Source of the DNA: Bryobacterales bacterium
Lineage (GTDB): Bacteria > Acidobacteriota > Terriglobia > Bryobacterales > Bryobacteraceae
NCBI GenBank assembly: GCA_003170295.1
Contig: PNAJ01000049.1
Coordinates: 1 to 42,431 of the forward strand
Length of the DNA: 42,431 bases
Reading direction: 5' to 3'
The notes beneath the pieces were generated by a model that worked only from the letters and a program-made list of their open reading frames with translations, had not been told where the DNA came from and ran no database searches. Position numbers and translations under genes: made by a program. Shown here in pieces: positions 32,021-36,281 of the stretch. Positions within the stretch are counted from its first letter, which is position 1, and every line of letters begins with the position of its first letter.

Positions 32021-32509
32021 CTAGTTGGCCAGCAACTTCAGCCAGCTCTCGGCAATCCTCCGGTGCTCCGTGCCGCCGGTGGCAAGATACGCCTCCACTT
32101 CAGAGCGGGCTTCGACGGTCGACCCTTGATGCGCCAGCACGTCCGCCGCGCCCAAGTGTGCTTCCGGATACGTGCGGGCCGCGCGATGGAGACAATAGAG
32201 AGCCTCGGCGGTGTAATGATACTGGCGCGCCAGGGTCCAGCCAAGGACGAACTGCGCGCGAGAGTTTGCGGGGTCGAGCTCCAGCGATTCGCGCGCCGCC
32301 CATTCCGCTTGCTGCAAGCGATTCAGTGAGAGCAGAGCGAAACTCACATTCACCCGAGCCTCCGCCGACTTGGGATTCTGTGCCGCTGCACCCCAAAGCT
32401 CCGCGAGGGTTTTCTCCGGCTGGTTGGTGTTCAATTCGAGTTGTGACAGAGAAATAGACTGCGCGGAAAGGGCCAGAGAGCAGAGAGCCCCAAGAATCGC
32501 AATTCGCAT
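32021..32509 (-). CDS. small exported TPR protein
   Basis: A 162-residue protein with a signal peptide (about 1-16, AILGALCSLALSAQS). Three to four TPR-like units follow: PEKTLAELWGAAAQNPKSAEARVNVSFALLSL, NRLQQAEWAARESLELDPANSRAQFVLGW, YHYTAEALYCLHRAARTYPEAHLGAADVL and TVEARSEVEAYLATG. It resembles the repeat segments of larger TPR proteins common in this type of genome. No enzymatic domain is present. It lies 98 bp upstream of the S9 peptidase, in the same orientation. A coding-like fragment without a start (32522-32668) ends 12 bases upstream, so it may once have been the second gene of another operon. Confidence 0.8.
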   Translation of the reverse strand: MRIAILGALCSLALSAQSISLSQLELNTNQPEKTLAELWGAAAQNPKSAEARVNVSFALLSLNRLQQAEWAARESLELDPANSRAQFVLGWTLARQYHYTAEALYCLHRAARTYPEAHLGAADVLAHQGSTVEARSEVEAYLATGGTEHRRIAESWLKLLAN

Positions 32510-32521
32510 GGGACAGTTTTG

Positions 32522-32668
32522 TCAGGAATCCGTGCGGCGGACAAGACGCCAAAGTTCGATTTTGTACTGGTACTCGGCATTTTCGCCACGTGGGTCGTAT
32601 GGCTCGCCTCTCGAGACCGTCGGATCTACGCCGTTACCGAACGAAGGCGGAAGTAGATGCCGCGTTTT
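32522..32668 (-). pseudogene. possible 3' remnant of a gene, no start codon
   Basis: A minus-strand frame ending at TGA (32524-32522) encodes about 48 residues with a plausible protein-like tail (PYDPRGENAEYQYKIELW, then RLVRRTDS). It is offset from the HEPN frame, begins after a TAG at about 32668 inside the HEPN 3' end, and has no start codon. The composition looks coding rather than random, and it stops 12 bases before the small TPR gene, as an operon neighbour would. It may be the surviving 3' end of a gene cut by insertion of the DUF262-HEPN module. Chance cannot be excluded. Confidence 0.35.
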
Positions 32669-33269
32669 CTATGTCGGTCTTGAAACTACGCATCAGGAAT
32701 ATCACTTCGTCAGCGAGATCACGCCACGCGTCTGCGTCAAGGTCGACAAATTCGCCGTGAGCTATCTTATTGCGTCGGCTTAGCAGACTTTCGTCCATGA
32801 GCTTGAACCGTGATTCGTAGGGCTGTATTCCGATTCCGATTGACAGAGCGATGTTTTCGAACACCTCGGCTTTGAGGTTCGATTTTGTATCGACATTAAA
32901 CTTCTGAAGCTTCGAAGGCGTCGCCGAAGATTGGCGAATGAAATCTACTGCCGCTATCCTAACGCGGGCCTTCTTCGCCTTGACAAGTTCCGTCATTTGC
33001 TTGCTAATGCCGAGAACAGCAAAACACGTTTGTAGTTCGCCATACGTCTTGCCTTGGCTATCAACGAAATTGATGTAAGCCTGTGCCGCGGACTTGACGA
33101 ATCCTTCCCAATGCGCGTAAAGAATAGCGATCCCAGCGCGTATAAGGGTTCTCTCGCTCAGGCCGTCATTTCGCTTGGCGGCGAGCTTCATGTCGGCGAT
33201 CTCCTTCACCCGCCATGCGATATCTTCGTCAAGAGCGGTCTGTAACTGCCCGAGAGTTCGGATCTTCAT
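32634..33269 (-). CDS. HEPN-domain protein, MAE_28990/MAE_18760-like
   Basis: A 211-residue, mostly helical protein resembling the MAE_28990/MAE_18760-like HEPN group. The N-terminal segment TLGQLQTALDEDIAWRVKEI, the ILYAHWEGFVKSAAQAYINF helix (about 49-68) and the C-terminal SRRNKIAHGEF (164-174) are characteristic. Arg166-Asn-Lys-Ile-Ala-His171 is an intact RX4H motif, the RNase catalytic signature of active HEPN toxins. The start ATG overlaps the stop of the DUF262 gene by four bases (ATGA); a longer reading to 33371 is a frame shadow. The codons look less GC-biased than in neighbouring genes, which suggests transfer. It is probably an RNA-cleaving effector controlled by its DUF262 partner; this is family knowledge plus inference. 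Confidence 0.85.
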   Translation of the reverse strand: MKIRTLGQLQTALDEDIAWRVKEIADMKLAAKRNDGLSERTLIRAGIAILYAHWEGFVKSAAQAYINFVDSQGKTYGELQTCFAVLGISKQMTELVKAKKARVRIAAVDFIRQSSATPSKLQKFNVDTKSNLKAEVFENIALSIGIGIQPYESRFKLMDESLLSRRNKIAHGEFVDLDADAWRDLADEVIFLMRSFKTDIENAASTSAFVR

Positions 33270-34408
33270 GCGACATGAAAAAATTCTTGCGCCATTGGTA
33301 GGAGCTTTGCGAGCCTGGTGGTTCCCCTCACGCCCGCTCCTGAGTTCTGTAGAAAAACTTCGTTCTGCCACAGATCTTTCGCACGACGGACGATAAAGTC
33401 TACCGGGTTGTCGTCAAGTGTTTCGATTTGGTCGATGTTCTTGGATACGCCGAGCGCTACCACCTCGAAAACCGACATCAAGAACTTCCCGGCGAATCGA
33501 TCACCGTCCCAGCGTTTAAAAGCGTTCGCGCCAAGCGCTGCATTGAGAAGCCCAAAGGTACGCTCAAATACGAGCTTCTCTGCTTCCGCCGCGAACGTCT
33601 GATCGCTAGCGAGGGTGATGAGCGACTTGTCTAAATATTCGTGTACATCCAGACCCTGCTTGTAGGGGCAAAGACGAAACGCCACGAATCGAAGCGCGAG
33701 CTCAACTCCCGTCTGCTTCTTCAAAGCTTCTTCAGTTTGAGCCGTCGCGGCGACAAACGGCTCGAACGAAGAGCGGTCTTTTAGCCAATTATAGAATTCG
33801 GGATTAATCATCAAAGCCGTACAATTTCGAACTTCCTGTTCCGAAAGCTCCGTGCCGCCTGTGTTCAACCGCTGGAACAGTTCGTATTTCGCAATGGGGT
33901 CGCTCTCCTTCTTAAGGATCTCCACTCGAATTCGAGCACGCTTGATCGAGATTTGTGCGGCCCCGCCAATCCCGCGATCGCTGTCTTCCTCGGGTGCCTG
34001 CCAGATTTTGCCGGCCAGATCGGGAAGGAAGTTCGTCCCCAATAGCTCTACGGGGCCCGGAGGATCGGGCTCTCCCGCCCGTTTCTTTAAGACTCCAACG
34101 AACTCGAAGATCGTTGAAAGCCTCTGAAGACCATCAATAAGTTCCCAAGCTCCCCGCGACGTCGTAAACACGAAGATCGGAGGTACTGGAATTCCTAACA
34201 GAAGGGATTCAATGAATCTAGTCTTCTGACTGTCCTTCCACCGGAACAGCCTCTGATAATCCGGGTGGATGATTAGTTCGTTGTCGTGATACAAATTGAG
34301 GATCTCTCCAACCGACATGTCGTAACCGTCGGGTGAGATTTCCTTTCGCGCCTTTTCTATCTGCTGATCTAACGGCACATTACCTCCGAGGACCTGCTGC
34401 CTTACCAT
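33266..34408 (-). CDS. DUF262 (ParB/GmrSD N-domain-like) protein
   Basis: A 380-residue protein with the DUF262 core. Its features are IIHPDYQRLFRWKDSQKTRFIESLLLGIPVPPIFVF (about 46-81), the DGxQR motif IDGLQRLSTIFEF (Asp92, Gln95, Arg96), and FQRLNTGGTELSEQEVRN (178-195). In GmrSD-type restriction factors this domain binds or hydrolyses nucleotides and resembles ParB/sulfiredoxin folds. The C-terminal half (about 200-380) is helical and lacks the HNH motif of a DUF1524 nuclease, so any nuclease activity must come from the HEPN partner. The ATG at 34408 has no Shine-Dalgarno; an in-frame GTG at 34378 (giving 370 residues) is preceded by GGAGGTAAT and may be the true start. It overlaps the HEPN gene by four bases. 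Confidence 0.88.
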   Translation of the reverse strand: MVRQQVLGGNVPLDQQIEKARKEISPDGYDMSVGEILNLYHDNELIIHPDYQRLFRWKDSQKTRFIESLLLGIPVPPIFVFTTSRGAWELIDGLQRLSTIFEFVGVLKKRAGEPDPPGPVELLGTNFLPDLAGKIWQAPEEDSDRGIGGAAQISIKRARIRVEILKKESDPIAKYELFQRLNTGGTELSEQEVRNCTALMINPEFYNWLKDRSSFEPFVAATAQTEEALKKQTGVELALRFVAFRLCPYKQGLDVHEYLDKSLITLASDQTFAAEAEKLVFERTFGLLNAALGANAFKRWDGDRFAGKFLMSVFEVVALGVSKNIDQIETLDDNPVDFIVRRAKDLWQNEVFLQNSGAGVRGTTRLAKLLPMAQEFFHVA

Positions 34409-34463
34409 TCAAGCATATGGAGCGAGCGCGCCTCCAGTTCGCGCCTGAACGAGGATGCCGCAG

Positions 34464-34485
34464 GGGGCGTGGGGACAGCCCCGCG
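34464..34485. repeat. GC-rich hairpin between DUF2442 and DUF262 genes
   Basis: The segment CGTGGGG-ACAG-CCCCGCG (34468-34485) can fold with one G-T pair, and GGGGC/GCCCC (34464-34468 / 34478-34482) is an alternative. It lies in the 115-bp gap between the DUF2442 stop and the DUF262 start, so it is either a REP-like insertion or an attenuator. No T-run follows. Confidence 0.45.
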
Positions 34486-34523
34486 TGTGATTCTCTTGAG
34501 CCCCCCAGAAACTCGTGACTTGC

Positions 34524-34799
34524 TTAGCCGCGGAGACGAGCCGGTTCCGCGGCGGCAGGCGCTCCACGTAGCAGGCCTTCCGTACTCAAGCCTTCGTCGA
34601 TGTCCGGCCAGTGAATCCCATAGCCTGCTCCGCTTACCTTCCAGCGAGATCGCTGTTCCATGGTAGCGTTCAAAAGTCGCGGATACCACGTTAGGGGAAC
34701 AATGATCGTGCGCCCGTCCGCGAGGTCCACGGCCAGGGTGTCCTCAGTGAAGTGTACGTCTCGCACGCGCTCTCCGGGATTAGGCTGGGAAGCGCTCAT
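34524..34799 (-). CDS. DUF2442 domain protein
   Basis: A 91-residue protein begun at the ATG at 34799, which has GGAG seven bases upstream; an open frame extends to 34898 through hairpin repeats and is unlikely to be translated. The core VRDVHFTEDTLAVDLADGRTIIVPLTWYPRLLNAT, then EQR.RW, GYGIHWP and DEGLSTEGLL, matches DUF2442. That family is often found next to DUF4160 genes as a putative toxin-antitoxin-like pair. No DUF4160 partner is visible here; the next gene in the same direction, 115 bp on, is the DUF262 gene. Whether the three act together is unknown. It may be an orphan remnant of a mobile pair. Confidence 0.85.
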   Translation of the reverse strand: MSASQPNPGERVRDVHFTEDTLAVDLADGRTIIVPLTWYPRLLNATMEQRSRWKVSGAGYGIHWPDIDEGLSTEGLLRGAPAAAEPARLRG

Positions 34800-34823
34800 G
34801 CCATTTCTCCGAAGCTGAATCAT

Positions 34824-34869
34824 CCCCACGCTGACGCATGGGGTTATAACCCCGCCTGTGAGGGCGGGG
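34824..34869. repeat. tandem GC hairpin repeat with TTATAA linker
   Basis: CCCCACGC-TGAC-GCATGGGG (34824-34843, one G-T pair) and CCCCGCC-TGTGAG-GGCGGGG (34850-34869) are joined by TTATAA. The two-hairpin design is typical of REP-like elements, some of which are mobilised by RAYT transposases. It lies just upstream of the DUF2442 start, between that gene and the permease stop. Confidence 0.6.
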
Positions 34870-34910
34870 ATTGCCGGAGCCAGCAACGCGGTTCGCATGC
34901 GTTCACAGTC

Positions 34911-36281
34911 TCACAGTGGTTGGGGTCGGCGCTTTTGCCGCGCCAGCTCGAAAATCGCGACTCCTATTAGGTTGCCGAGTAAAATGACGCCGCAGATTTT
35001 TGCCGTGAACAATGCCCGGCTCCCGACGTCGACAATCGGAAAAATTGAAAGGGCGACATAGAGCAGCGTCATCAGAAATCCCGACGCCGAGGCGCTTCGC
35101 ACAAAGAGCGACGCGTCTCTGGATACGAACGGCAGCGCGAACATCACCAGGTATGTGAGCGCGTAAAAGATCCCCGACGCGTTGTTGAACAACTGAAACG
35201 CTTCCTGTCTCGCGACCCCCGTCATACCGACTAAGCCACAAGTCAGCGTCGCCGCGCCGACGAACAGAATTGAATTGACTGGCGTCCGGTACTTCGAGTG
35301 CAGCTTGGTGAACCAGCGTGGCAGCAGATGATCCCACCCCGCGACCATCGGCAGTCGCGCGGTCGCAGAAAAGTTGAGGCTGGCCTGTGCGATCCGCATT
35401 CCCAGCACCATCAGAATAACCGCGCCCGCGATTTGCACACTCGCGCCAAAGGGTTTCGCCGCGATGGCCAGTACTTGCGACACCGGCGATACCAGGTCGA
35501 TGGAATTCATCGGCACATAGAACAACACCGATCCTGTCCCGAGGATGAACAGCAGCGCGATCACCGGAGCGGCGATCCATATACTGCGCGCGATGATTCT
35601 CGCCGGATCGCGCGATTCGCCCGCGAAAATCGCCACGTATTCGAAGCCTCCCAGCGCGGCGAATCCCAGCTTGCCGAGGATATTCAGATTCATCAGCGTA
35701 ACCGGAGGCATCGCCAGCGTGAAAGGCTGCGTCACTGGCTTCGCGCCGCGAGCCCATGCGATCGCGGGCAGCACGATCATCGCCGAAAGAATCACAACCA
35801 TCGTGATTCCGCCCGCGCTGTGCAGCCATTTTCCCGCGCCGAGCCCGATGGTAGACAGCACGGCGAGTCCGCCGAGAATGATCACGCTCGCGAGTGCGAT
35901 CGACCACTTGCTCTCCGCGATCCACTCAGCTCCTACCGCGTAAGAGATGTTGGTCGCGGCCTGCACGCCGATCTCCGACATCAGCACCATCGCATAGAGC
36001 CACAGATTCCAGGCGACCAAAAATCCCGCGCGCTCGCCGAATCCGAGCTTCGCCCATTGATACAATCCGCCTTCGAGCGGCATTCTTCGACTCAAATGGA
36101 TCACCACGATCGCGGAAGGAATGTAGAACAACACGACGGCCAGCAGCCAGAAAGTGACGTGCGAGGATCCCAGCTTGGCCGCGGCGCCCACCCATCCCAA
36201 GCCGACCACAAACAGGATCTGCGTGAAGACCAGGTCCCACAGACCGAGCTCGCGTTTCAATCCGTGCTCGGCTGTTTGCAT
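34911..36281 (-). CDS. APC-family amino acid permease
   Basis: A 456-residue polytopic transporter with about twelve hydrophobic helices. The N-terminal segment [24 protein letters not shown] and the first-helix region correspond to the conserved glycine-containing unwound TM1 of the APC superfamily. [41 protein letters not shown] (helices 2-3) and [29 protein letters not shown] (helix 6 region) are further hallmarks. The substrate is probably an amino acid or amine and cannot be refined. It starts 29 bp upstream of, and divergent to, ispG, so the two may share a regulatory region. No transporter subunit or regulator gene is adjacent. Confidence 0.9.

Follow-up and report, generated by a model that had tools for sequence, protein, structure and literature searches.

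A conserved DUF262-HEPN gene pair in a Bryobacterales genome: a likely anti-phage module and putative sister variant of PD-T4-2

What could a DUF262 protein without a nuclease domain be doing directly in front of, and overlapping with, the gene of a predicted ribonuclease (RNase) of the HEPN class? This question is raised by two minus-strand genes on contig PNAJ01000049.1 of a Bryobacterales bacterium (assembly GCA_003170295.1), the whole 42,431 nucleotides of which were analysed and are called the window below. Our answer, to which we give a probability of about 0.62, is that the two genes are tightly linked parts of a single, likely anti-phage module: the DUF262 protein is predicted to restrain the HEPN protein and to release it on an infection cue, so that RNA is cut.

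The DUF262 open reading frame (ORF) encodes 380 amino acids and the HEPN ORF 211 amino acids counted from its ATG, and the HEPN frame is also open 5' of this ATG, from an earlier GTG. Since a stored protein that matches the DUF262 protein at 100% has 370 amino acids, the true start of the DUF262 gene may be GTG 34378 rather than ATG 34408. In Pfam, the former protein is PF03235 (GmrSD_N, E 1.1e-25), the latter matches PF18737 (HEPN_MAE_28990, E 1.2e-35; 124.1 bits with a curated cut-off of 26.8) and PF18735 (E 1.7e-32), and no HNH or DUF1524 domain was found in either protein at E<=1. In the ATGA shared by the two genes, ATG starts HEPN and TGA stops DUF262. The GC contents of the DUF262 and HEPN genes are 0.522 and 0.509, their third-position GC is 0.59 against 0.65-0.77 in the five neighbour genes measured, and the lowest-GC 1-kb step of the window is 32501-33500 (GC 0.518). 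An earlier note made from the letters of this DNA had described a DUF262 protein with DGxQR and without HNH, an ATGA stop/start overlap, a HEPN protein with an intact RX4H motif at R166 and H171, and codons less GC-rich than the surroundings, and had proposed the Pfam check for PF03235 and HEPN_MAE_28990; all of these descriptions were borne out, and the check identified both families.

The main evidence for a single unit is the linkage of the two genes. When genome contigs were searched with the DUF262 protein and the best 80 of 125 matching loci were kept, a HEPN ORF directly adjoined DUF262 in 78 of the 80, the two others being a locus in which DUF262 is spread over two ORFs with no HEPN after them (L047) and one at a contig end (L059). 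The commonest spacing under a nearest-ATG rule was the 4-base overlap, found in 48 of the 78 genome pairs. With the HEPN profile as query, DUF262 was directly upstream in all 23 loci of viral contigs (spanning two ORFs in L167), and all six HEPN records of plasmids were also DUF262 records with touching coordinates, one pair lying across the record ends. PF18737 was detected at E<=0.001 in 17 genomes, including the source genome, of a 396-genome sample of the phylum, 15 of them above the family cut-off, and in each of the 16 other genomes a same-strand DUF262 ORF with DGxQR immediately precedes the HEPN gene. Judged by record titles, the pair is found in several phyla, on plasmids and in phage contigs.

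Distant DUF262 proteins occur with other partners or with no recognised one. A search of viral contigs with the DUF262 profile found HEPN adjoining in 41 of 50 loci (39 of 48, plus L172 and L174 from the HEPN set). Among the nine loci without a profile-matched HEPN, two are at a contig end (L190, L202), three have a downstream ORF with the RX4H pattern (L211, L217, L218), and four gave no HEPN match by the HEPN profile (L210, L221, L222, L223). In the twelve enterobacterial loci with PD-T4-2_A (L098-L109), the HEPN profile matches five and finds nothing in seven. The earlier note had made its proposal depend on conserved adjacency, which holds for the HEPN family and for close relatives of the DUF262 protein but not for all of its distant ones.

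Conservation of motifs was analysed in alignments of 70 pairs, namely the window pair and 69 of 83 candidate rows, among which L023, L054, L071 and L096 are not included. In addition to the RX4H residues given in Table 1, the residues Y51, H53, W54, E55, G56 and L132 of HEPN are invariant, and position 59 is K or R in 67 of the 70; by its residues, E55 with K/R59 is the Ex3[KR] element that PMC3710099 describes in HEPN domains. Of 89 pair rows, 87 have RX4H; the two lacking it are L023, where HEPN is cut short, and L071, at a contig end. The invariant residues of DUF262 are those of the QR, DGxQR and FxxxN motifs, which are named for the GmrSD family (PMC12137116), and R365. The AlphaFold2 model of HEPN has seven helices, and eight of the nine top rows in VIA-align carry HEPN in the title, while the top structural matches of the DUF262 model are BrxU, SspE and ParB; when solved structures were searched by sequence, HEPN gave no credible match and DUF262 gave weak DUF262 chains. 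Distances among the DUF262 proteins and among the HEPN proteins of the 70 pairs correlate with r 0.93, with none of 2000 permutations as high, and the two proteins have therefore been inherited jointly, although this is no proof of contact. No DUF262-HEPN fusion protein was found among the best 120 of 7800 DUF262 relatives, the longest of which has 408 amino acids. As a separate observation, the C-terminal stretch GAGVRGTTR of DUF262, which holds R365 (R361-R365 at 33314-33328), is a candidate contact to HEPN or DNA.

Table 1. Positions of the gene pair and its motifs in the window.
Feature	Positions	Strand	Evidence
DUF262/GmrSD_N, predicted NTP-dependent sensor-regulator without nuclease domain	33266..34408	-	PF03235; AlphaFold2 predicted local distance difference test (pLDDT) 91.8
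QR motif Q52 R53 of DUF262	34250..34255	-	Invariant in 70/70 aligned; motif named in PMC12137116
DGLQR motif D92-R96, predicted nucleoside triphosphate (NTP) pocket of DUF262	34121..34135	-	Invariant in 70/70 aligned; role of DGxQR from PMC10952713
FxxxN motif F178-N182 of DUF262	33863..33877	-	F178 and N182 invariant in 70/70 aligned
ATGA overlap of HEPN start and DUF262 stop	33266..33269	-	Sequence
HEPN protein of family PF18737 (MAE_28990), predicted RNase effector	32634..33269	-	PF18737; AlphaFold2 pLDDT 93.7
YAHWEGFVK block Y51-K59 with Ex3K (E55, K59), second conserved HEPN element	33093..33119	-	Alignment of 70
RX4H motif RNKIAH (R166-H171), predicted catalytic, of HEPN	32757..32774	-	R166, A170, H171 and G172 invariant in 70/70

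How such a pair might work can be proposed as follows. Because the nuclease slot is taken by a separate HEPN protein from an overlapping frame, coupled production and contact of the two proteins are likely. DUF262 is predicted to keep HEPN inactive before infection; the cue would be either phage DNA, which may be modified or in replication, or an altered nucleotide pool, and binding or hydrolysis of NTP in the DGLQR pocket would free HEPN. The freed HEPN would act on tRNA, rRNA or mRNA, and the infected cell would be arrested and the infection likely aborted. The pair itself would have been gained by horizontal transfer. The earlier note had proposed a defence or toxin-antitoxin-like module of a sensor and an RNase; this proposal is favoured by the tight linkage of the genes, by their invariant motifs, by their presence on plasmids and phage contigs, and by homology of the DUF262 protein to that of the experimentally proven defence system PD-T4-2, but the arrangement is not new, since PD-T4-2 and an operon table of 2013 already present it.

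The main rival is a plain toxin-antitoxin pair, in which DUF262 does no more than neutralise the HEPN RNase; addiction would keep such a module on mobile DNA, and any phage defence would be incidental. The order of genes with the regulator first and the frequent 4-base overlap would suit this explanation, as would the location of plasmid copies near ParA and RepA genes or adjoining repM. Broken copies point the same way, though they come from very few loci: wherever the HEPN of one of the 78 genome pairs covers at least 90% of the profile, DUF262 is just as complete, and L023 has a complete DUF262 with a HEPN lacking the RX4H end. However, an NTPase-type domain as large and conserved as DUF262, in which three motifs are invariant, exceeds the needs of a neutraliser; no upstream inverted repeat or palindrome suggesting autoregulation was found; and PD-T4-2, the closest tested relative, came from an isolation by phage protection. 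We therefore consider a plain toxin-antitoxin pair unlikely, while taking it more seriously than any other alternative.

Several copies and relatives on mobile DNA are recorded here in their own right. In Klebsiella michiganensis (L054:5998-7700), both halves are broken, DUF262 lying in two frames and HEPN being cut near its end beside an IS903-type sequence. An Escherichia coli plasmid (L097:1939-4557) carries DUF262 and a 180-amino-acid PF18735 HEPN just after pemI-pemK, and DUF262 matches were found in 520 Escherichia plasmid records. Enterobacterial phages with genomes of 163-179 kb, which we read as T4-like, encode their own DUF262-like proteins, possibly as genes for counter-defence or competition.

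A second rival is DNA restriction, in which the ParB-like DUF262 protein is itself a nuclease, as the label "ParB nuclease" in the 2013 survey implies, or HEPN is only a nucleic-acid-binding subunit, and invading DNA is cut while the host survives. The DUF262 half does resemble BrxU and SspE, the 2013 table lists a ParB nuclease together with a DNA methylase (PMC3710099), and relatives of the pair have a methyltransferase beside them in E. coli MS8345 and a Terrisporobacter phage, or adjoin a BsuBI/PstI-type restriction-modification pair in Psychrobacter. Against it, neither HNH, DUF1524 nor another nuclease domain was found, mere binding would not require the RX4H motif to be invariant, as it is in the aligned set, and methyltransferase-type motifs occur among the four nearest ORFs at only 5 of 78 genome loci in a crude motif scan (L015, L017, L025, L034, L060), which places a methyltransferase outside the core unit. 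DNA restriction thus appears improbable to us, more so than the toxin-antitoxin explanation.

A methyltransferase as a third core gene was accordingly considered and rejected, its occurrences being these five loci and the cases in E. coli MS8345, the phage TVCOM_ph1 and Psychrobacter. In E. coli MS8345 (L096:3696-6794), a DNA methyltransferase, DUF262 and HEPN are consecutive, and a partial gene for an Arm DNA-binding protein of integrase type comes next; this HEPN is PF18735/PF18737, and the pair is a more distant relative of the window pair. In Terrisporobacter phage TVCOM_ph1 (L091:3983-7412), DUF262, HEPN and a DNA methyltransferase lie between regulator genes and an integrase, and the first two are annotated merely as hypothetical proteins.

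That the pair is horizontally acquired but idle cargo in the source genome can be set aside as very improbable, because both frames are open, full-length and keep the residues invariant in the aligned set, and the two genes stay together in relatives, even though two GC-poor genes among ordinary ones and promoter-like signals at chance level might suggest it.

The locus in the source genome and its relatives bears on how the pair arrived there. Its scanned neighbours are a DUF2442 protein, a TPR protein, a GcpE/IspG protein and an S9 peptidase. Our wider-kin sample comprised 101 genomes, including 22 other genomes of the same genus; none of these 22 has a close DUF262 copy, and two have distant DUF262 matches (best 52.7 bits versus 855 for self). 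The relative G264 keeps the order ispG, permease (73% identity), TPR (52%) and S9 peptidase (71%), with another gene between permease and TPR that has no match to DUF262, HEPN or DUF2442 and that we read as a putative metallo-beta-lactamase-type hydrolase because of its HHHGDH motif. Four further same-genus loci have no pair beside the permease; they are weaker evidence than G264, since the sequence retrieved for them, only about 1.4 kb in L150, did not show the TPR and S9 genes. Because the pair is missing at the corresponding locus of same-genus relatives, we infer that it was gained locally in the source lineage. The DUF2442 gene (34524-34898, minus strand) lies directly upstream of the pair; it matches nothing in the five same-genus loci examined and may have come in with the pair, despite a GC of 0.62, which is native. 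No direct repeats of at least 14 bases that would mark an insertion were found in 32300-35000, the window has no tRNA as integration site, and promoter and terminator signals of the pair are at chance level.

The earlier note had also proposed a neighbourhood analysis for conservation of the pair within defence islands, and here the pair proved conserved but enrichment in such islands weak. Neighbour ORFs were selected automatically on length, which let in some spurious ones, and adjacent ORFs shorter than 150 amino acids were dropped. Within the first 25 families of each tally, six of the 117 remaining adjacent ORFs are phage integrases. PADLOC matches of adjacent ORFs amounted to one ORF per family except for mad3 and mad8 with three each, as an uncontrolled count, and the 104 next-but-one ORFs of 150-600 amino acids gave single matches to methylase, AbiLi, PDC-S35 and SoFic models.

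The PADLOC 2023 models match only the DUF262 half of the pair and not its HEPN effector, despite its occurrence in several phyla, plasmids and phage contigs. If the proposed mechanism is true, the sensor domain of modification-dependent DNA restriction can also control an RNase, and the role of nuclease-less DUF262 proteins, that of PD-T4-2 included, becomes testable.

Comparison with known systems helps to place the pair. MNT-HEPN toxin-antitoxin systems combine a HEPN RNase with a nucleotidyltransferase regulator and have a tyrosine two residues past the RX4H histidine. The window pair likewise joins a putative HEPN RNase to a regulator, whereas its regulator is DUF262 and not a minimal nucleotidyltransferase, and at the corresponding HEPN position, 173, the window protein has E; of the 70 aligned proteins, 67 carry E, Q, D or R there. 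NsnA is the top PADLOC match of the window DUF262 protein (8e-57), but the model of its neighbour NsnB, which we read as an ABC-type ATPase, matches 14 of 14 control genomes, and the two NsnB matches of the source genome are on contig C79, away from the pair; no relevant literature was found under the names NsnA, NsnB or NsnABC among the matches listed. In ptuXYZ, as described in PMC11980606, a DUF262 protein without nuclease is also tied to an RNase, but this RNase, PtuZ, has a BECR fold and a third gene encodes an ATPase. No experimental study of a DUF262 and PF18737 pair was found in the literature searched, which was non-exhaustive and mostly open-access.

The type IV and phosphorothioate-sensing systems GmrSD, BrxU and SspE share the DUF262 domain with the QR, DGxQR and FxxxN motifs; in the account of PMC10952713, their DUF262 binds or hydrolyses NTPs, and this is tied to nuclease control. 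Unlike them, the window pair has no DUF1524/HNH effector, and a separate HEPN gene stands in its place. The survey of Anantharaman et al. (2013) places MAE_28990 HEPN in an operon with a "ParB nuclease" and a DNA methylase (PMC3710099), and thus agrees with the window pair in the HEPN family name, the conserved RX4H and the ParB-type operon partner; DNA methylase genes are listed there, whereas the loci analysed here have a methyltransferase only occasionally, their core consisting of two genes.

The closest likeness is to PD-T4-2 (Vassallo et al., 2022), which was isolated by phage protection, protects E. coli (K-12) from T4, and whose deletion in ECOR65 dramatically raises T4 plaquing, according to PMC9519451; it is listed with both DUF262 and a PF18735 HEPN in PMC10952713. 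Two comparison pairs were obtained via the PADLOC models, one in genome G493 (527 and 209 bits for the two halves) and one in E. coli MDR_56 (538 and 213 bits); the MDR_56 pair lies on what we read as a P4-like element adjoining ssrA. PD-T4-2 and the window pair both have two genes with DUF262 before HEPN, a DUF262 without nuclease, and the DGLQR and RX4H motifs, and their DUF262 proteins are homologous, with 28% identity to the L124 protein over 329 columns and hhalign values of 99.80% and 99.85%. With the PD-T4-2_A model, the window DUF262 protein scores 115 bits (9e-34), while other DUF262 proteins score about 96-161 bits and the two comparison pairs, which also match PD-T4-2_B, the far higher values above. 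The effectors look like different families: PD-T4-2_B proteins have 167 amino acids with RNRVAH or RNAAAH, one of them matches PF18735 at 0.0017 only, and hhalign gives 1.1% and 0.4% between the window HEPN and the two PD-T4-2_B proteins, i.e., no profile similarity. The window HEPN has no PADLOC 2023 model match at E<=1, hence none to PD-T4-2_B, and membership in PD-T4-2 was rejected on this half. Since the DUF262 proteins are homologous and the HEPN proteins look unrelated, the window pair is, on the comparisons made, a sister variant of PD-T4-2 rather than a member; systems of this kind are already known, and the effector family differs from the tested one. A broader reading, which we put forward tentatively and at somewhat less than even odds, is that such pairs do to RNA, with two genes, what type IV restriction does to DNA: a DUF262 chassis would recognise foreign or modified DNA and set off a separate HEPN RNase, and evolution would have swapped HEPN families on it (PF18737 here, PD-T4-2_B in E. 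coli); DUF262 would then be a general trigger for the destruction of RNA as well as DNA.
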